Below, in pieces: positions 3 to 6,410 of a stretch of 6,509 nucleotides of DNA (position 1 is its first letter; every line of letters begins with the position of its first letter). This DNA comes from Burkholderiaceae bacterium. Lineage in GTDB: Bacteria; Pseudomonadota; Gammaproteobacteria; Burkholderiales; Burkholderiaceae. The translations under genes and the position numbers were made by a program. Where the stretch lies: the NCBI GenBank assembly GCA_947374315.1, contig CANCBK010000144.1:1-6509 (forward strand), read 5' to 3'. The notes under the pieces were generated by a model. It worked only from the letters and a program-made list of their open reading frames with translations. It did no database searches and was not told the origin of the DNA.

Positions 3-845
3 GCACGTTATGCGTGTTTTGACCATTTTGAGCGTAATAGTGAGCTTTATGGATATGCGCAGGGAATGAAGGGGGTATCCCAATCTTGCGAGGATCAAGT
101 GGTTAAGCAATTGATTGAACTGTGCAAAAGAGGGGAAGACTATTTAAAGCATGATGGATCTGATACTACTGATGCGCTCTTCTATGCGCAGCAAAATGCG
201 CGCTTGATCAAGAATGCTGAGCAATACTACCGAAATATGTTTGATCGCCGTATCTCTTCATGGAATATGCGTGATCAACATATGGCGGAGATCTTGGTAA
301 ATCTAGATCATCACATTTCTCATCGGCGTGGTGCTCCAGCAAAGATAGTTGTTTGGGCCCATAACTCTCATTTAGGGGATGCGCGTGCCACTGAGATGGG
401 TGAGCAAGGCGAATTAAATGTGGGTCAATTGATGCGTCAGACCTATGGCGATCAAGTGATATCAGTGGGATTCACTACGCACCACGGGACAGTAACGGCA
501 GCCTCTGACTGGGGCGCTCCTGTACAGCGCAAACAGGTCCGTCCTGCACTGCATGGAAGCTATGAGGATTACTTTCATCAAATGGGCGTTGGCTCTTTTT
601 ACCTGCCCATCAAGGGAAATCATCTCTTGCATGAGATATTTTCATATGGTCATCACTTAGAGCGAGCTATCGGCGTGATTTATGCGCCAAAGACAGAGCG
701 TCAAAGCCATTATTTTCATGCGAATCTCGCAAAGCAGTTTGATGCGGTAATTCATATCGATGAATCGCAAGCATTAACTCCATTGGAGCTAACGAGCCAT
801 TGGGTTGATGGTGAAGCTCCTGAAACTTATCCGGGTGGACTCTAA
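3..845 (+). CDS. Erythromycin esterase family protein, 3' part (cut by left edge)
   Basis: This is the C-terminal 280 residues of an erythromycin-esterase family hydrolase. The frame stays open to the left edge, and the residues before the first internal ATG (position 66) read ARYACFDHF...ELYGYAQG, a conserved family block, so that ATG is not the start and the 5' end lies outside the window. Family members are usually about 400-450 residues, so roughly a third is missing. Visible family motifs are SCEDQVV (about residues 26-32 of the fragment), the WAHNSHLGDARATEMG block near codons 118-133, whose H-N-x-H histidines match those implicated in the active site of EreA/EreB, and VGFTTHHGTVTAASDWG. 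Most chromosomal members of this family are not proven macrolide-resistance enzymes, so the substrate is unknown. The stop is 3 bases before the phosphorylase start, so the two are probably co-transcribed. Family assignment is confident; function is not. Confidence 0.9.
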   Translation, partial: ARYACFDHFERNSELYGYAQGMKGVSQSCEDQVVKQLIELCKRGEDYLKHDGSDTTDALFYAQQNARLIKNAEQYYRNMFDRRISSWNMRDQHMAEILVNLDHHISHRRGAPAKIVVWAHNSHLGDARATEMGEQGELNVGQLMRQTYGDQVISVGFTTHHGTVTAASDWGAPVQRKQVRPALHGSYEDYFHQMGVGSFYLPIKGNHLLHEIFSYGHHLERAIGVIYAPKTERQSHYFHANLAKQFDAVIHIDESQALTPLELTSHWVDGEAPETYPGGL

Positions 846-848
846 AAA

Positions 849-2393
849 ATGGATTCAAACTATTTATCGTTGCGCCGGGTGGCGATTGATACCTACCATG
901 AGAACGTCGCCTATTTACATAGGGACTGCGCCGTCTATCATGCAGAGGGGTTCCAAGCGCTATCGAAGATCGCGGTGAAGGCGAATGGCAATCAAATTCT
1001 GGCCACATTAAATGTGGTGGATGATCTATCGATTGTTGGTTGCATGGAGATAGGACTGTCTGAGGATGCCTTTATGCAGTTGGGTGTCGAGGGCGGTCAT
1101 TCAGCCTCCGTCTCACAGGCTGAGCCGCCAGCCTCGATGGGTGCGCTATTCCGAAAAATTAATGGTGAAAGATTGGATGCGGATAGTTTTCTGCAAATTA
1201 TTAACGATATCTCCAAGCATCTGTATTCAAAGATTGAATTAACCGCCTTTGTAGTTTCAACCAATCGTGGTGAGATGGATCGTGACGAAGTCTATTTCCT
1301 AACCAAGGCAATGATTGAAAGCGGTCGCCAGCTCGAGTGGCGCGAGCCATTGGTGGTTGATAAGCACTGCATCGGCGGAATACCTGGAAATCGAACCTCT
1401 ATGCTGGTGGTGCCTATTTTGGCTGCCCATGGAATGTTATGCCCGAAAACCTCTTCTCGTGCGATTACTTCCCCTGCTGGGACGGCCGATACCATGGAGG
1501 TGTTAGCTAAAGTGGATTTGCCATATGAGAAGCTTCTGGAAATCGCCCTAAAACATCATGGTTGTTTGGTATGGGGAGGGGCATCTGATCTATCTCCTTC
1601 GGACGATGTGCTGATCTCGGTTGAGCGTCCTTTATCTTTGGATTCTCCCGCGCAAATGGTCGCGTCGATACTTTCTAAAAAAATTGCAGCCGGGTCCTCT
1701 CACCTCGTTTTGGATATCCCCATTGGTCCCACTGCGAAAGTGCGGTCAATGCAAGAAGCGCAAAATTTACGTCGACTATTTGAATACGTCGCTTCCCGCA
1801 TGCACTTATCGCTAGATGTCGTGATTACGGATGGCCGGCAGCCTATCGGATTTGGCGTAGGCCCTGCACTCGAGGCGAGGGATGTGATGGCAGTGCTGGA
1901 AAACGATCCCTTGGCGCCAAACGATTTGCGTCAAAAGGCCTTGCGTTTAGCAGGTCGACTACTTGAGCGTGATCCGGATGTTCGTGGCGGAGACGGTTTT
2001 GCGATTGCCAGGGATATATTGGATTCAGGTAGAGCGCTGGCAAAGATGAATGACATTATTGAGGCGCAAGGCTCACACCATTTTGACTATAAGAACCCGC
2101 AATTGGGTAAGTTAACTTATGAGGTGGTAGCGCAATGCTCAGGAGTGGTTTCTGCGATCGATAATTTACAGATCGCCCATATTGCGCGCCTTGCTGGAGC
2201 ACCAAAATTTCAGGGTGCGGGCGTCGATTTATTGCATAAGTTGGGTGACCCAGTAGATGCGGGAAGTGTGTTGTATCGCATTCATTCTGAAATTGGGTCT
2301 GACTTGGTTTTTGCAAAAGAGCTTTGCGCAAAATCGAGTGGGTACAAGATCGGTAGTGCGGAAGATATCTCACATGTATTTGTGGAGTTTTGA
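849..2393 (+). CDS. Thymidine/AMP phosphorylase-like protein (type 2, 514 aa)
   Basis: This is a pyrimidine-nucleoside-phosphorylase fold enzyme of the long 'type 2' subfamily, which includes archaeal AMP phosphorylase (about 503 aa). The E. coli-type DeoA is about 440 aa. The extra ~80 N-terminal residues fit the extended N-terminal domain of the archaeal form. Phosphate-binding glycine-rich loop: [15 protein letters not shown] (near residues 171-185). Family signature: [20 protein letters not shown] (near 200-219), nearly identical to archaeal AMP phosphorylases. The expected reaction is phosphorolysis of a nucleoside or nucleoside 5'-monophosphate to base plus ribose 1-phosphate or ribose 1,5-bisphosphate; bacterial members are annotated as putative thymidine phosphorylases, and the substrate cannot be fixed from sequence. 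The start is ATG with GGTGGA about 9 bases upstream, 3 bases after the esterase stop. Its TGA overlaps the next ATG by one base, suggesting coupled translation with the PRPP synthetase. Confidence 0.93.
2384..2387 (+). promoter_or_regulatory. Ribosome-binding site for the PRPP synthetase gene
   Basis: GGAG lies inside the last codons of the phosphorylase gene, 5 bases before the ATG at 2393. This fixes the start on the ATG rather than the TTG one codon earlier and supports translational coupling across the TGATG overlap. Confidence 0.7.
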
Positions 2394-3280
2394 TGAAAAC
2401 AATTAGCTTGCTCTATTTTCAAAGCGAGGAAGCATCCGCTTTAAGGTTGGCCCAATTGGCCGGACTGAATCCGCAGTTGATTATTCGCCATGATTTTCCA
2501 GATGGTGAATTTAAACTGCAATTGCCAACCAATCTTTCTAGCCGTACTGTGCTCTTTCATACCTTAGACCATCCTAATGAGAAGTTCATTGAATTACTGT
2601 TTGCTGCTGGAGGCGCAAGGCAACAGGGCGTTCGTCATCTCACGTTAGTTGCTCCATATCTAGCCTATATGCGCCAGGATATTGCTTTTATTGAAGGTGA
2701 GGTGATTAGCCAGCGAATTATTGGTGAATTATTAGCCTCTATGTTTGACGCTGTGATTACCGTAGATCCCCACTTACATCGAATTGCAAAGCTAGAAGAG
2801 GCTATTCCTGTCGATCCTGCGCTGGTAATTAGCGCGGCTCCCTTGCTGGGTGAATTTGTCGCCAAACAGAGGTCCAATCCATTCTTAATGGGCCCCGACG
2901 CAGAATCTGCGCAGTGGATAGCGCAGGCGGCATTGAAGGCGCATTTAGATTTTGCGGTGGCAAAAAAAATCCGCCGAGGGGATTTAGAGGTGGAAATCAC
3001 TTTTCCTAAGATCCATGTTGAGGGGCGGGCAGTTGTGTTACTGGATGACATTGCCAGTAGCGGCCACACCTTGGCACGAGCAGCTGAAATTTTATTCACT
3101 GCGGGAGCGGTTAGTGTCGATGTTGCGGTAACGCATGCATTATTTAGTGATGGTGCTGTAGAGCTTATTAAAAACTCTGGAGTTCAAAATATTTGGAGTA
3201 CCGATACGGTTATCCATTCAAGCAATGCAGTGAGCGTTCTGCCAAATCTAGCCAAAGCATTAAAAAATATTTTTAGATAA
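2393..3280 (+). CDS. Ribose-phosphate pyrophosphokinase (PRPP synthetase) homologue, 295 aa
   Basis: The enzyme family makes PRPP from ribose 5-phosphate and ATP in the cytoplasm. Motifs, numbered from the ATG at 2393: FPDGE (35-39), APYLAYMRQD (87-96, the ATP-site region), VDPHLHR (124-130, metal/ATP histidines), the catalytic flexible loop with KKIRRGD (191-197), and the PRPP-binding loop LLDDIASSGHT (216-226) with its Asp pair. At 295 residues it is shorter than the usual ~315-residue bacterial Prs, and its loops differ from housekeeping Prs (which has a DDMIDTGGT-type loop), being closer in style to archaeal or divergent bacterial paralogues. It is probably a second, specialised copy. The start at 2393 is preferred over an in-frame TTG at 2390 because GGAG (2384-2387) sits 5 bases upstream of the ATG, which overlaps the phosphorylase stop by one base. 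Confidence 0.92.
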   Translation: MKTISLLYFQSEEASALRLAQLAGLNPQLIIRHDFPDGEFKLQLPTNLSSRTVLFHTLDHPNEKFIELLFAAGGARQQGVRHLTLVAPYLAYMRQDIAFIEGEVISQRIIGELLASMFDAVITVDPHLHRIAKLEEAIPVDPALVISAAPLLGEFVAKQRSNPFLMGPDAESAQWIAQAALKAHLDFAVAKKIRRGDLEVEITFPKIHVEGRAVVLLDDIASSGHTLARAAEILFTAGAVSVDVAVTHALFSDGAVELIKNSGVQNIWSTDTVIHSSNAVSVLPNLAKALKNIFR

Positions 3281-3304
3281 ATTTTTCTACTTTTCAAGTG
3301 ATGT

Positions 3305-3308
3305 GGAG
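3305..3308 (+). promoter_or_regulatory. Ribosome-binding site deciding the PyrR-like start
   Basis: GGAG, 7 bases before the ATG at 3316. The sequence before the alternative GTG/ATG starts at 3298 and 3301 is pyrimidine-rich with no Shine-Dalgarno match, so the shorter protein is preferred. Confidence 0.65.
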
Positions 3309-3315
3309 TCCGTTG

Positions 3316-3885
3316 ATGGATGAATTACCAGTTGGAGTGCGCACTTGCTTATATGATGACGAGCACATACTTGCGGTTGTCAATCGAATGGCTAGTCAGG
3401 CCTCGGGCTTGCTACATGGTTGCTCAAGTGTGGCTATTATTGGCATACTTCGCCGTGGCGCCCCCTTAGCCGACAAGCTCACAGAAATCTTGGTTAATCA
3501 GCATGGATTGTCTGCGCCTATTCGCTTGGATTTATTGGTTAAAAGGTATGCCGACGATTTAACCTTGCTATATCCCGATACGCAGCTGCTCGAAGACAAG
3601 CAAGCTGCTTCTATAGATTTCACTGGATGCACCTTGCTTATTGTGGATGATGTGCTCTATACGGGACATTCTTTACTAAGGGTGCTTGAGTATTTTGTAA
3701 AAAAGAACCCCAAAAAAATCCTGATTGCTTGTTTGGTGGATAGGAAGGCCAATACTATTCCCATTAAGGCCGACATTGTTGGTATTGATCTTCAAATTGC
3801 TCCGGGGGATGTTGTGGAATGTCACATTCCTCCCTATGAGTCCGAATTTCAAATTCAACTACTCAAATTGACCGATCAGAACTAA
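3316..3885 (+). CDS. PyrR-like phosphoribosyltransferase, 189 aa
   Basis: This is a type I phosphoribosyltransferase-fold protein resembling PyrR (pyrimidine operon regulator/uracil phosphoribosyltransferase) in length and motif order. Numbered from the ATG at 3316: GILRRGAPLA (43-52, PRT loop I), the PRPP-binding loop LIVDDVLYTGHS (108-119), where VDDVLYTG is a PyrR hallmark, and VDRKANTIPIKADIVG (141-156), matching the PyrR segment that normally reads like VDRGHRELPI. Those basic and His positions differ here, so RNA-binding regulation is doubtful; a base phosphoribosyltransferase or PRPP sensor role is possible. The start at 3316 is chosen because GGAG (3305-3308) lies 7 bases upstream; in-frame GTG 3298 and ATG 3301 have no Shine-Dalgarno sequence. 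It sits 35 bases after the PRPP synthetase and 11 before another PRT, which ties it to PRPP metabolism. Confidence 0.85.
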   Translation: MDELPVGVRTCLYDDEHILAVVNRMASQASGLLHGCSSVAIIGILRRGAPLADKLTEILVNQHGLSAPIRLDLLVKRYADDLTLLYPDTQLLEDKQAASIDFTGCTLLIVDDVLYTGHSLLRVLEYFVKKNPKKILIACLVDRKANTIPIKADIVGIDLQIAPGDVVECHIPPYESEFQIQLLKLTDQN

Positions 3886-3896
3886 AGAAGATCAGA

Positions 3897-4523
3897 ATGA
3901 TTTTTCATCATCGCTTACACGCGGCCCAATTATTGGTTGATAGATTAGATCAATATCGAGGTCAACACCCCTTGGTCTTGGCGATTCCTCGTGGAGGCGT
4001 ACCAATAGGCAGGGTGATTGCCGATGCCCTAGGGGGCGATCTAGATATATTGATGGTGAGGAAATTGGGTGCACCTAGTGATTCGGAGTTAGCGATTGGT
4101 GCGGTGAGCGAGGGTGGGGAAGTATTTATATCCACCATTGCAGAAAGAATGGGTGCCAATGAAGAATATATTGACGCTGAGGTTGGCAAGCAAATGTCAC
4201 TCATGCATCGTCGTCGCGCTCAATATACGCCGGTACGATCACCTATCAGCCCTCGAGACAGAATTGTGATTGTGGTTGATGATGGTCTCGCTACAGGTGC
4301 AACTATGGTTACTGGTCTGAGGTCGTTGCAAAACTTACGCCCCAAAAAAGTCATTTGCGCCTTACCAGTTGCCGCGGCGAATTCAATCCCCTTCGTTGCG
4401 CAATATTGTGACGAAATTGTCTGTCTGAGTGAAGAGCATAATTTTTCAGGGGTGGGGGCGTTTTATCAAGACTTTGCTCAGGTAGATGACGATGAAGTTA
4501 TAGGCCTGCTGGCAAGGTCTTAA
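3897..4523 (+). CDS. Predicted phosphoribosyltransferase, COG1926 type, 208 aa
   Basis: This is a phosphoribosyltransferase-fold protein of the orphan family represented by COG1926, whose substrate is unknown. Visible blocks in order: AIPRGGVPIG (29-38, PRT loop I), VRKLGAPSDSELAIGAV (54-70, a family-specific signature), the PRPP-binding loop VVDDGLATGATM (126-137) with its Asp pair, ALPVAA (155-160), and a C-terminal block VGAFYQDFAQVDDDEV (186-201). The length is typical of the single-domain form; in some bacteria the domain is fused to a dienelactone-hydrolase-like domain, which is absent here. The ATG start follows the upstream stop by 11 bases, with a weak purine-rich AGAAG sequence about 6 bases before it. 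Its position beside a PRPP synthetase suggests it truly uses or senses PRPP. The family call is strong; the reaction is unknown. Confidence 0.92.
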   Translation: MIFHHRLHAAQLLVDRLDQYRGQHPLVLAIPRGGVPIGRVIADALGGDLDILMVRKLGAPSDSELAIGAVSEGGEVFISTIAERMGANEEYIDAEVGKQMSLMHRRRAQYTPVRSPISPRDRIVIVVDDGLATGATMVTGLRSLQNLRPKKVICALPVAAANSIPFVAQYCDEIVCLSEEHNFSGVGAFYQDFAQVDDDEVIGLLARS

Positions 4524-4527: not shown

Positions 4528-4535
4528 CATTGCTG

Positions 4536-5399
4536 ATGCGGTCGATGACAACATCCATTACCAGTCTTGGTCAATGCTTTTTTGTTGGCTTACTCGTCTT
4601 GATGGGTGATGGCCATACTGCTGGAGTGTTAGAGGCTTGTAATGGGGGGTCTGCGAATCTTACTCGGGAATGTTTGCTGAAACAATTCTCGGCATCCGTA
4701 ACTCCTACATTAAATATTCCAGATGCTATTTCTGATGAATATATCTCGCTTTTGGAGAATACGCTCCAGCTAGCCAATGAACCAATCACCAGCCCACAAT
4801 TCGTGATCTTGGTGGATAGAAACCCCAATGTTCAGGTTGTATTTTTATATTTGGGCGCACCTAAGGAGGGTTGGACCCTTATAGGCGCGACTCCAACATC
4901 GACTGGTTTGCCCGGTAAATATGAGCACTTTCTAACCCCCTTAGGCGTCTTTGAGCATTCTTTAAGTAATCCCGATTTTCGTGCCGAGGGAACCAAGAAT
5001 GAGTTGGGATTTCGGGGGTATGGCGCAAAGGGAATGCGCGTATACGATTTCGGCTGGGTCCCAGCTCAGAGGACTTGGGGCAATAAGAGTATGGGCGTGT
5101 TGCGCTTGCAAATGCATGCAACCGATCCCGAGTTGGCGGAACCGCTCTTAGGAACCCCGCGATCCGAAGGTTGCATTCGTATTCCCGCATCCTTGAATTA
5201 TTTTATTGATCACTATGGAGTGATTGATTCTTTCTATGAAGAGGCGCTTACACAGGGTGTACATTTCTGGGTCCTCGCAAAGGATCGAGAGAGTTCCCCA
5301 TTTTCTGGCCGCTATCTTGTTGTGGTTGACTCAGGGCTGGATGTCAAGCCTTTATGGTCTCGTGTTATTCGTGGGCAGCGGGTAGGACAACTGAAATGA
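4536..5399 (+). CDS. Exported L,D-transpeptidase (YkuD domain), 287 aa
   Basis: A YkuD-fold enzyme expected to act on peptidoglycan stem peptides in the periplasm, forming 3-3 crosslinks or attaching proteins. The N-terminus has a hydrophobic stretch (about residues 10-24, LGQCFFVGLLVLM) followed by small residues around HTAG, consistent with a signal peptide cleaved near residue 29, although the positive n-region is weak (a single Arg). The catalytic region has MHATD with His194 and, further on, RSEGCIRIPASL with the presumed nucleophile Cys213. The usual motif is S-H-G-C; here Glu replaces His, a variant I associate with a Burkholderiales-like subfamily. The start at 4536 is set by AAGGAG (4522-4527) 8 bases upstream; a TTG at 4530 would be only 2 bases away. 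The gene begins 12 bases after the PRT stop and overlaps the GNAT gene by 4 bases. Confidence 0.88.
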   Translation: MRSMTTSITSLGQCFFVGLLVLMGDGHTAGVLEACNGGSANLTRECLLKQFSASVTPTLNIPDAISDEYISLLENTLQLANEPITSPQFVILVDRNPNVQVVFLYLGAPKEGWTLIGATPTSTGLPGKYEHFLTPLGVFEHSLSNPDFRAEGTKNELGFRGYGAKGMRVYDFGWVPAQRTWGNKSMGVLRLQMHATDPELAEPLLGTPRSEGCIRIPASLNYFIDHYGVIDSFYEEALTQGVHFWVLAKDRESSPFSGRYLVVVDSGLDVKPLWSRVIRGQRVGQLK

Positions 5400-5791
5400 T
5401 TAAATATTCCGAAAATAAACAGTTGCAGGCAAAGGCCATTGTTCAGCTCTATATCGCTGCGGGCGTGGATCAACCCATTACCGATTTAGCCCGCATTCAA
5501 AAAATGATTGATCACTCAAACCTGATTATTTCAGCGTGGGACGGAAACGCGTTAGTTGGCGTTGCCCGGGCAGTCACTGATTTTGGATATTGCTGTTATT
5601 TATCCGATTTAGCGGTTGATCAACATTATCAGAGGATAGGTATTGGTAGGAGCTTAATCACCCTGATGCAAAAAGCAATTGGCCTTGAGGTGTCACTGAT
5701 ACTGATGTCTTCACCGGGGGCGGCGGTATTTTATGAAAAATTAGGGTTTACAAATTTTAGTAATGGCTACGTCGCTAAAGGCATTTTGTAA
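5396..5791 (+). CDS. GNAT family N-acetyltransferase, 131 aa
   Basis: A small single-domain acetyl-CoA-dependent acyltransferase. The acetyl-CoA-binding motif A is clear: LSDLAVDQHYQRIGIGRSLI (69-88), containing the Q/R-x-x-G-x-G core QRIGIG at 79-84. Motif B is seen as FYEKLGF (112-118), with the Tyr often found near the active site. The acceptor substrate cannot be inferred. ATG 5396 is chosen over an in-frame GTG at 5354 because it overlaps the transpeptidase stop in the classic ATGA arrangement, AGGA lies 8 bases upstream (5384-5387), and the extra 14 residues would match no GNAT core element. The overlap suggests coupled translation with the transpeptidase gene. The length is normal for a minimal GNAT domain. 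Confidence 0.9.
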   Translation: MIKYSENKQLQAKAIVQLYIAAGVDQPITDLARIQKMIDHSNLIISAWDGNALVGVARAVTDFGYCCYLSDLAVDQHYQRIGIGRSLITLMQKAIGLEVSLILMSSPGAAVFYEKLGFTNFSNGYVAKGIL

Positions 5792-5897: not shown

Positions 5898-6410
5898 ATG
5901 TTTAATAATTTGATACTTGAGCAATTTTTGGCGCTACAAGGCAAGTCTTCAGAATTGACGGGGAATATGAGAAGCATCTCAATCGATATGGGGAAGGAAA
6001 TCATGGAGATTCATCGTAAGGCAGCGCAAGACTTGAGTTCGATGGGGCAGGGTTATTTGAAGAAAATGACCGCTGTTTATGATCCAGCTACGACCCCAAC
6101 GATGTTTGGGGCACATGAGTTTGGGCAGATGTTGGAATATTGGGCTGAATATCAAGGTAGCCTTAAAAAGGCCATTGATCAGGGAAGCCATGCGCTTTTC
6201 AATGAGATGGAAGGTCTATCGACGCAAGCCCGCTATGATCTTGAGAAAATAGTCAATGGATTAACGAATAACGGACCTATAGCAGGCACTCCAATAATGG
6301 CGGCTACTAAAGTCGGGCTGGATATGTTGATGCAGTCCTGTGATCATCTGGCTGAGGCGACCAAAAACACTATGGCAAATATGGAGAAGTTTTCCAATGC
6401 AAAGGCCTAA
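5898..6410 (+). CDS. Phasin family protein, 170 aa
   Basis: Phasins are small amphipathic helical proteins that coat polyhydroxyalkanoate granules in the cytoplasm and control their size and number. The protein looks almost wholly helical, with no signal peptide or membrane segment, and Met, Ala, Gln and Lys are frequent. The opening (FNNLILEQFLALQGKSSEL) resembles the phasin N-terminal helix. A central segment (about 76-107) with repeated aromatic and hydrophobic spacing, and a C-terminal helix (about 134-165) ending in EATKNTMANMEKF, fit the family. The length is near the usual ~170-190. There are no catalytic motifs, as expected. The ATG is fixed by AAGGA 5 bases upstream. The gene is separated from the operon by 106 bases and may have its own promoter. 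Phasins diverge strongly, so this rests on overall character rather than a sharp motif. Confidence 0.72.
   Translation: MFNNLILEQFLALQGKSSELTGNMRSISIDMGKEIMEIHRKAAQDLSSMGQGYLKKMTAVYDPATTPTMFGAHEFGQMLEYWAEYQGSLKKAIDQGSHALFNEMEGLSTQARYDLEKIVNGLTNNGPIAGTPIMAATKVGLDMLMQSCDHLAEATKNTMANMEKFSNAKA

Follow-up and report, generated by a model that had tools for sequence, protein, structure and literature searches.

A nearly obligate pair of phosphorylase-like and PRPP-synthetase-like genes suggests an unrecognised route for burning nucleotide ribose when oxygen is short

Two gene units at the locus

The window, by which we mean the whole stretch of 6,509 nucleotides analysed here, carries four adjacent co-directional open reading frames on the plus strand at 849-4523, and the ORF listing confirms all of them as the first-pass annotation had placed them. 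The first, TP (849..2393, +), is a long AMP/NMP-phosphorylase-like gene specifying 514 aa; its relatives are annotated as thymidine phosphorylase family proteins. The second, PRS' (2393..3280, +), is a remodelled PRPP-synthetase-like gene of the PRK07199 type, so placed by profile match, residues and fold, with an ATG start at 2393 (alternatively a TTG at 2390) that overlaps the TP stop in a TGATG at 2391-2395. After a gap of 17 bp comes PRT1 (3298..3885, +), a PyrR-like phosphoribosyltransferase which stays below the PyrR equivalog cut-offs (best 80.3 vs. 138 bits), and after a further 11 bp PRT2 (3897..4523, +), a phosphoribosyltransferase that passes the cut-off for the Pfam Pribosyltran domain only and has Thermus TT1426 (1wd5) as its nearest solved structure. 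The gene run extends on both sides: an erythromycin-esterase-family gene (3..845, +, its 5' end beyond the window) ends 3 bp before TP, and a YkuD-like gene of the L,D-transpeptidase fold (4530..5399, +) starts 6 bp after PRT2, its product matching 8qzg (E 8.1e-56) and scoring 19.1 bits with Pfam YkuD, under the cut-off of 23.4. The window's genes include no RNase, XFP or AckA, and no RuBisCO.

The first-pass annotation had read the four genes as a single module, an idea which neighbourhood surveys do not support; instead, the locus consists of two units. The four-gene order was found in none of 84 loci (the best 80 of at least 570 confirmed genome matches plus 4 plasmid loci), nor did any of 24 diverse loci show it. 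Among the further genomes surveyed, neither phosphoribosyltransferase is linked to TP-PRS': TP occurs in three of 25 PRT1-bearing genomes and is adjacent in none, and PRT2 is found in 23 of these 25 and adjoins PRT1 in seven. A route with the phosphoribosyltransferases running in reverse as partners of TP-PRS' (NMP + PPi -> PRPP, then PRPP + AMP -> R5P + ATP) was dropped because they do not travel with that pair. We take PRT1 and PRT2, which lie in the same gene run and outside the conserved pair, as accessory genes of this organism's run.

The co-occurrence across genomes for which the first-pass annotation had proposed a survey does hold for the other two genes. In an even draw of 200 Pseudomonadota genomes, TP is present in 24 and PRS' in the same 24 (hypergeometric P ~1.6e-31), with the two lying within ~110 bp of each other at 24 of 25 TP places. 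The exception (genome G162) has PRS' 3.8 kb upstream of TP in a single run, PRS'-XFP-RNase-TP-PTA-AckA, in which AckA was named by clustering. In the further 84 loci, where PRS' presence was judged by tblastn and genes were called by codon usage, PRS' adjoins TP in 82 and is missing nearby in two; this sample tilts to close relatives because it is made of best-scoring matches, and the 200-genome draw is the fairer one for co-occurrence. Plasmid records with a TP match number 172, the unit also being present in a Criblamydia plasmid record. Tree distances of TP and PRS' correlate with r 0.92 across the 105 loci where the two were each called as genes, against a maximum of 0.30 in 999 permutations. 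Thus, TP and PRS' form a nearly obligate pair, co-inherited with few exceptions. The literature searched, which largely lay outside subscription journals and preprints, contained no earlier study of the pair, and like-named genes surfaced there only in tables, as single rows, of PMC6515984 and PMC9104804, both on Bradyrhizobium.

Features of the phosphorylase and the altered PRPP synthetase

TP scores 681 bits with PRK04350 (cut-off 434) and 595.4 bits with TIGR02645 (cut-off 434.6), the latter match joining TP residues 6-501 to profile positions 1-491; profile and alignment thus agree on the archaeal-type full length, N-terminal region included. It falls below the AMP_phos equivalog TIGR03327 (489.4 bits vs. 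a cut-off of 535) and below all four curated thymidine/pyrimidine-nucleoside phosphorylase cut-offs scored, namely TIGR02643 (144.4 vs. 570.7), TIGR02644 (188.7 vs. 409.05), PRK05820 (185.2 vs. 269) and PRK06078 (127.5 vs. 559). The nearest solved structures, 4ga5 and 4ga4, bear the PDB name putative thymidine phosphorylase and are presumably T. kodakarensis TK0352, an archaeal NMP (AMP) phosphorylase. At the 126 columns with at least 95% conservation in 109 family members, 4ga5 agrees at 100, as against 66 for the nucleoside phosphorylase 1brw. Columns common to 1brw include Ser273 and Lys277, both kept in TP, which we take to have base-binding roles; the Arg partner expected for them did not align. 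AMP, CMP and UMP are all phosphorolysed by TK0352, as stated in passages of PMC9700705. For a bacterial family member, no measured activity was found in the literature searched, with subscription journals and preprints largely outside its range.

PRS' scores 357.3 bits with PRK07199 (cut-off 322) and 186.9 bits with TIGR01251 (cut-off 113), and its fold matches that of the nearest structures, from M. jannaschii (1u9y) and T. volcanium (3mbi), with TM-scores by query length of 0.84 and 0.89. We aligned 106 PRS' sequences (108 minus two outside 250-330 aa) and compared them with six canonical Prs proteins (L162, L163, L166, L167 and L169 being left out of 11 because their stretches were in a wrong reading frame) and three archaeal ones. 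The adenosine site, the R5P- and Mg-binding positions and the catalytic Lys/Arg are kept, with K193, R195, H128, D170, D219, D220 and T227 invariant in all 106. The pyrophosphate loop (2891..2935, +; residues 168-182 when numbering begins at 2390, including E172 and W176) is rebuilt, with GPDxE replacing the canonical SPDxGG. The first loop Gly, present in all six canonical and three archaeal comparators, is Glu (E172) in 105 of 105 PRS' sequences, counted over 105 because the second Prs of locus L154, among the 106, is a canonical-type paralogue; the second loop Gly is missing also from two of the three archaeal enzymes. At the position of E. coli Arg99, a β-phosphate-binding residue of PRPP synthetase according to passages of PMC9232217, the 106 sequences mostly have I (54), M (15), K (11), T (10) or V (6), Lys thus being retained in 11, and the archaeal comparators have K, R and Q. 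By these residues, PRS' appears to be no ordinary PRPP synthetase, its phosphate-handling positions having changed, though it would not follow from the altered loop that it transfers a single phosphate. The first-pass labels of a long archaeal AMP/NMP-phosphorylase type, borne out by the profile scores, N-terminal region, conserved columns and loop, and of a divergent PRPP synthetase, borne out by the loop and Arg99 changes, were hence well chosen.

These features bear on two rival readings. Public gene names would point to a conventional salvage operon in which TP acts on thymidine/uridine and PRS' is one more PRPP synthase, a reading with which the retention of Ser273 and Lys277 agrees. This is improbable in view of the nucleoside phosphorylase cut-offs that TP fails to reach, its SSRAITS-type loop and N-terminal region of the archaeal kind, and the family-wide nature of the PRS' changes; moreover, one or more additional Prs genes with lower scores are present in each of eight PRS' genomes checked, and an ordinary PRPP synthase needs no partner so strict. 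Alternatively, PRS' could be no enzyme but a subunit that regulates TP or the housekeeping Prs, as the near-obligate pairing and abutting genes might indicate; Prs-associated proteins do exist in animals, and the matches of PRS' include 2c4k and 2ji4. We consider this very improbable since a scaffold has no reason to keep catalytic and binding residues, and all 106 sequences agree at the positions that bind Mg and R5P and at the catalytic Lys/Arg.

Recurrent neighbours, regulation and the proposed fate of ribose 1,5-bisphosphate

A β-CASP protein, with a PF10996 match in each case, directly adjoins TP-PRS' in 10 of the 24 diverse loci, and phosphoketolase or acetate kinase genes lie nearby in a few (gene names in L135-L158 come from clustering or genome searches, apart from the domain-scanned ones). 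At the genome level, 14 of the 24 genomes with TP encode a β-CASP protein, compared with 23 of the 176 without it (P 2.9e-6); for XFP, the corresponding counts are eight and 23 (P 0.017), and in four of those eight it lies within 10 kb of TP. Since 10 and 16 of the 24 TP genomes, respectively, are without them at the thresholds used, the RNase and XFP are optional parts.

According to tables in two Bradyrhizobium papers (PMC6515984, PMC9104804), the like-named bll3117 and bll3115 of the operon bll3117-3116-3115 and the phosphoketolase and acetate kinase genes bll2518-2517 are down in ΔfixK2, and bll3115-3117 and bll2518 are up in microoxia; the 2019 table lists these genes as not being direct FixK2 targets and as unchanged in bacteroids. 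This common FixK2 dependence, as tabulated, points to an exit through R5P. FNR-like boxes upstream of TP are weak (7/106 vs. 39/1464 control genes at up to one mismatch), and FNR/FixK boxes were set aside as general evidence.

The R15P isomerase (TIGR00511), whose absence from the window the first-pass annotation had noted, is above cut-off in none of the 200 genomes, the 24 TP genomes included, and in three of 14 control genomes. All TIGR00511 matches in 127 of the 200 fall below cut-off and are presumably methylthioribose-1-phosphate isomerase relatives; the archaeal exit through this enzyme was accordingly rejected. PhnN (TIGR02322), which converts R15P to PRPP (passages of PMC9700705), occurs in four of the 24 TP genomes. 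With no isomerase above cut-off and so little PhnN, PRS' is therefore the leading candidate user of R15P.

We infer both enzyme activities, their direction and their role in the window's own organism. TP would convert NMP + Pi to base + R15P, as does its archaeal relative, and PRS' would consume R15P and release ribose 5-phosphate. In the most economical chemistry, PRS' would reverse the reaction of PRPP synthetase on a substrate lacking one of its phosphates, R15P + AMP -> R5P + ADP or R15P + ADP -> R5P + ATP. The R5P could enter the pentose phosphate route, or yield ATP without respiration via phosphoketolase and acetate kinase; in part of the genomes, the β-CASP RNase of the same operon may supply nucleotides from RNA. 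Such a system might serve the emergency use of RNA or nucleotide ribose at low oxygen or under energy stress. That TP-PRS' is a two-enzyme R15P unit (NMP -> R15P -> R5P) is a tentative reading to which we give slightly less than even credence. The fuller version is more speculative and less likely: PRPP synthetase would have given rise to a new R15P:AMP (or ADP) phosphotransferase which, with TP and the optional RNase, phosphoketolase and acetate kinase, ferments the ribose of the cell's own RNA for ATP under oxygen limitation, R15P being led to R5P in place of RuBisCO. Purine nucleotide phosphorolysis is uphill under standard conditions, as is ATP or ADP formation from an anomeric phosphate, and the catabolic direction requires high Pi and AMP, with base and R5P being drawn off.

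In the opposite direction, the two steps run downhill, which favours low-energy base salvage, with PRS' making R15P from R5P + ADP (or ATP) and TP joining it to a base to give NMP + Pi without PRPP. While useful when ATP is scarce, this leaves the RNase, phosphoketolase and acetate kinase partners and the shared regulation unexplained, and we regard it as quite improbable. Nucleotide-to-PRPP recycling, in which PRS' would convert the R15P made by TP to PRPP (R15P + ATP -> PRPP + ADP) for the phosphoribosyltransferases, is unlikely, albeit consistent with the Prs fold and active-site core, with the two downstream phosphoribosyltransferases in the window and with R15P -> PRPP being a known conversion (PhnN, passages of PMC9700705) whose enzyme is missing from 20 of 24 TP genomes. 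However, these phosphoribosyltransferases are not conserved neighbours of TP-PRS', the recurrent ones being RNase, phosphoketolase and acetate kinase instead, and the changed part of PRS' is the very loop expected to hold a diphosphate. Of the first-pass proposal, a nucleotide-to-ribose-phosphate route is likely, whereas PRPP or base exchange is a less likely end product than ribose 5-phosphate because of these partners, the FixK2 co-regulation and the altered loop.

Significance and relation to known systems

Both annotated names in the unit are probably misleading, and the pair, with its RNA-cutting and sugar-splitting associates in some bacteria, suggests an unrecognised route to burn nucleotide ribose when oxygen is short. 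Were this so, R15P metabolism would reach many bacteria lacking R15P isomerase (of the 200 Pseudomonadota genomes drawn, 24 carry the unit, as does the Criblamydia record), the PRPP-synthetase fold would have a second chemistry, and the low-oxygen phosphoketolase and acetate kinase genes would gain the cell's own RNA as a substrate source. In the literature searched (subscription journals and preprints largely outside), no paper contained both 'AMP phosphorylase' and 'phosphoketolase'.

Among known systems, the archaeal pentose bisphosphate pathway or NMP shunt shares with the proposed route an NMP-phosphorylase-type start and the R15P node, but has an R15P isomerase where the proposed route would exit as R5P to the pentose phosphate route or phosphoketolase. 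TP resembles TK0352 in its full-length architecture with the N-terminal region and in the SSRAITS..AGTAD loop, and differs from archaeal AMP phosphorylase in the family-wide Cys174, Arg182 and Gly336 and in being partnered by PRS' rather than R15P isomerase/RuBisCO. PRS' shares with PRPP synthetase the fold, adenosine site, R5P-binding positions and catalytic Lys/Arg, and is set apart by a new Trp176, His130-Arg131 and Arg/His226 in 83 of 106. The known bacterial R15P enzyme, PhnN ribose 1,5-bisphosphate phosphokinase, would share this substrate with PRS' but forms its own family (TIGR02322) outside the Prs family to which PRS' belongs. The neighbouring RNase has the MBL, β-CASP and RMMBL domains of archaeal aCPSF1 and type VII Cas14 (as scanned in L003 and L004), and these are its best NCBIfam profiles; nevertheless, it scores well below both equivalog cut-offs and, unlike either of them, sits with TP-PRS'.

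The TP–PRS' pair in the window and elsewhere

Four co-directional genes lie together in the window on the + strand, according to the ORF calls: TP, a long archaeal-type AMP/NMP-phosphorylase-like gene (849-2393); PRS', a remodelled PRPP-synthetase-like gene (2393-3280) whose start overlaps the end of TP in TGATG; and two phosphoribosyltransferase-domain genes, PRT1 (3298-3885) and PRT2 (3897-4523). The first-pass annotation saw these genes correctly, and its reading of them as a single four-gene ribose-phosphate module was mistaken. An erythromycin-esterase-family gene (3-845) ends 3 bp 5' of TP, and a YkuD-like gene (4530-5399), overlapped by a GNAT acetyltransferase (5354-5791), starts 6 bp 3' of PRT2. 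The YkuD-like protein has an SEGCIR motif and is related to the solved YkuD protein 8qzg (E 8.1e-56), at a score below the Pfam YkuD cut-off. The last ORF (5898-6410) resembles a phasin by eye only, and a Pfam/NCBIfam search matched it to zero families above cut-off.

The pairing of TP with PRS' is nearly obligate. Among 200 evenly drawn Pseudomonadota genomes, the profiles TIGR02645 (TP) and PRK07199 (PRS') each match in 24, and these are the same genomes (chance of co-occurrence 1.6e-31, a figure that overstates independence because the genomes are related). The two genes are spaced by at most about 110 bp at 24 of the 25 TP places in this draw, and PRS' adjoins TP in 82 of 84 further loci; by gene calls they overlap or lie within 5 bp in 75 of 106 cases. 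Their tree distances are correlated at r 0.92, against a maximum of 0.30 in 999 permutations. The pair is also annotated in plasmids of Criblamydia (Chlamydiota), Celeribacter, Phenylobacterium, Novosphingobium and Bradyrhizobium. The two exceptional loci, with TP but no neighbouring PRS', are L083 and the Azospirillum ramasamyi plasmid locus L001, where an MBL gene directly follows TP. Another, lower-scoring Prs accompanies PRS' in all eight genomes checked. One locus (L154) carries a canonical-type Prs paralogue with an SPDAGG loop in the same 20 kb as an RNase-TP-PRS' run.

The neighborhood surveys rule out the four-gene module, as PRT1 and PRT2 are not conserved beside TP-PRS'. In the 84 TP loci, the esterase, PRT2 and later genes of the window have zero matches and PRT1 has five weak ones, all located over 3 kb 5' of TP; near TP in 24 diverse loci, PRT2 occurs in two, the esterase in one and PRT1 in none. 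PRT1 is present in 25 of 349 Burkholderiales genomes, three of which have TP, in no case adjacent. PRT2 is present in 23 of these 25 and adjoins PRT1 in seven. Thus, the absence of co-occurrence elsewhere that the annotation had named as refuting its module was found for the phosphoribosyltransferases and not for TP-PRS'. PRT1 and PRT2 form a two-gene unit of their own in Burkholderiales (3298-4523 in the window, and four further loci, L190-L192 and L199); PRT1 is PyrR-like, yet below cut-off. In one distant genome, the esterase gene and PRT2 recur about 6-8 kb from TP, perhaps as a shared stress island.

Recurrent neighbors and low-oxygen regulation

A beta-CASP protein is encoded directly before TP or after PRS' in 10 of the 24 diverse loci (10-20 kb each, from 23 genomes), with overlapping gene ends in nine of these ten and a match to the beta-CASP profile PF10996 at all ten places. 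Two plasmid-borne members of the cluster, scanned in full, have MBL, beta-CASP and RMMBL domains. Their best NCBIfam models, matched below cut-off, are type VII Cas14 and the archaeal aCPSF1; as possible bacterial relatives, they are of interest for how Cas14 arose. By clustering, phosphoketolase is present within four of the 24 loci and acetate kinase within three; a Pfam domain search was applied to the copies of both in locus L156. One locus (L155) has PRS', phosphoketolase, an RNase, TP, a phosphotransacetylase-domain protein and acetate kinase in a single run, and Criblamydia groups phosphoketolase, glucan phosphorylase, an MBL protein, TP, PRS' and acetate kinase. At the genome level, 14 of the 24 genomes with TP have beta-CASP, compared with 23 of the 176 without it (P 2.9e-6). 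The corresponding counts for phosphoketolase are 8 of 24 and 23 of 176 (P 0.017), so that beta-CASP is missing from 10 TP genomes and phosphoketolase from 16. In three loci (L138, L139 and L142), an NfeD-type and SPFH/Band 7 gene pair lies immediately upstream of TP-PRS' (domains scanned in L138).

In Bradyrhizobium diazoefficiens, bll3117 (thymidine phosphorylase family), bll3116 (ribose-phosphate pyrophosphokinase) and bll3115 (MBL fold) are listed in the same order (PMC6515984, Table 2); we tentatively assign them to the TP-PRS' family from their names, gene order and a like operon in B. septentrionale. In microoxia, the three are reported to rise in protein (log2 change 2.1, 4.4 and 2.9, respectively) and in transcript (5.1-, 7.7- and 15.4-fold), as does the phosphoketolase bll2518 (4.3; 8.2-fold); for bll3117, bll3116 and bll3115, that table gives no bacteroid change and no mark as direct FixK2 targets (PMC6515984). 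The 37 genes listed as down in both fixK2 mutant strains include bll3117, bll3115 and the phosphoketolase-acetate kinase operon bll2518-2517 (PMC9104804, Table 2), with delta-fixK2 values of -6.6 (bll3117), -30.6 (bll3115), -10.0 (bll2518) and -10.2 (bll2517), and boxes are given at -74 for bll3117-3116-3115 and at -89 for bll2518-2517 (PMC9104804). What emerges is a strict partnership of an archaeal-type nucleotide phosphorylase with a remodelled Prs. Over part of its distribution it is linked to an RNase and phosphoketolase, and a single organism connects it to oxygen limitation. The partnership is more interesting than the first-pass annotation supposed.

The phosphate pocket of PRS'

An ordinary Prs transfers diphosphate from ATP to O1 of ribose 5-phosphate (R5P). 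PRS' passes the PRK07199 subfamily cut-off, and its predicted structure (pLDDT 96.1, pTM 0.93) finds PRPP synthetases as best matches (1u9y, TM 0.84; 3mbi, TM 0.89, by query length). Across an alignment of 106 sequences (105 family members and one canonical paralogue), the adenosine-site Phe, Asp and Glu are kept in 105, 105 and 106 and the RQD motif in 106, 105 and 106. Invariant throughout are His128, Asp170, Lys193, Arg195, Asp219-Asp220 and Thr227 (numbered from a start at 2390), among which the Lys and Arg are presumably catalytic. Several of the kept residues match those reported to hold adenine, magnesium and R5P in E. coli Prs (PMC9232217).

The first Gly of the pyrophosphate loop, present in six canonical and three archaeal comparators, is Glu in all 105 PRS' sequences. 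At the position of E. coli Arg99, described as forming a salt bridge to the beta-phosphate (PMC9232217), Ile is the commonest residue (54 of 106 rows), ahead of Met (15), Lys (11), Thr (10) and Val (6), and the next residue is Ala in 90. Trp176 takes the place of a canonical Arg in 105 sequences, position 226 is Arg or His in 83 of 106 and Gly in all nine comparators, and His130-Arg131 also belong to the family-wide changes. The part expected to handle the diphosphate is thus the most changed part of PRS', which suggests that the enzyme may transfer a single phosphate. Conversion of ribose 1,5-bisphosphate (R15P) to PRPP by PRS' is a live rival to the route to R5P proposed below.

A candidate route from nucleotides to R5P

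With the pairing, neighbors and residue changes as observed, the most likely scheme is a route from NMP through R15P to R5P via TP and PRS', its activities and direction being those that we infer. TP would convert NMP and Pi to base and R15P, as does TK0352, for which phosphorolysis of AMP, CMP and UMP is reported (PMC9700705). PRS' would then yield R5P by moving the 1-phosphate of R15P to AMP or ADP: a Prs-type enzyme using ADP, without the gamma-phosphate site, would form R15P and AMP, and in reverse R5P and ADP. The R5P could pass through phosphoketolase to acetyl phosphate and through acetate kinase to ATP, or enter the pentose phosphate route. Energetics under standard conditions favor the direction opposite to NMP breakdown, and hence base salvage, with both reactions running the other way, is a live rival to the breakdown route. 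R15P isomerase is found above cut-off in none of the 200 Pseudomonadota genomes, and PhnN in 4 of the 24 with TP and 25 of the 176 others. Among the titles listed in literature searches, none describes the TP-PRS' pair.

The breakdown route would start from TP, a phosphorylase that scores above the cut-offs of PRK04350 and TIGR02645, below that of the AMP_phos equivalog (489 against 535) and far under those of all four thymidine/pyrimidine-nucleoside phosphorylase models matched. Among the best 120 of 8000 relatives scored, the closest stands at 95% and the closest bearing an organism name, that of Polynucleobacter sp. MWH-UH23A, at 84%. Of 126 alignment columns with a conservation of 95% or more among 109 members of the family, 100 agree with the solved archaeal-type phosphorylase 4ga5, which has the SSRAITS loop in common with TP, and 66 with the nucleoside phosphorylase 1brw.
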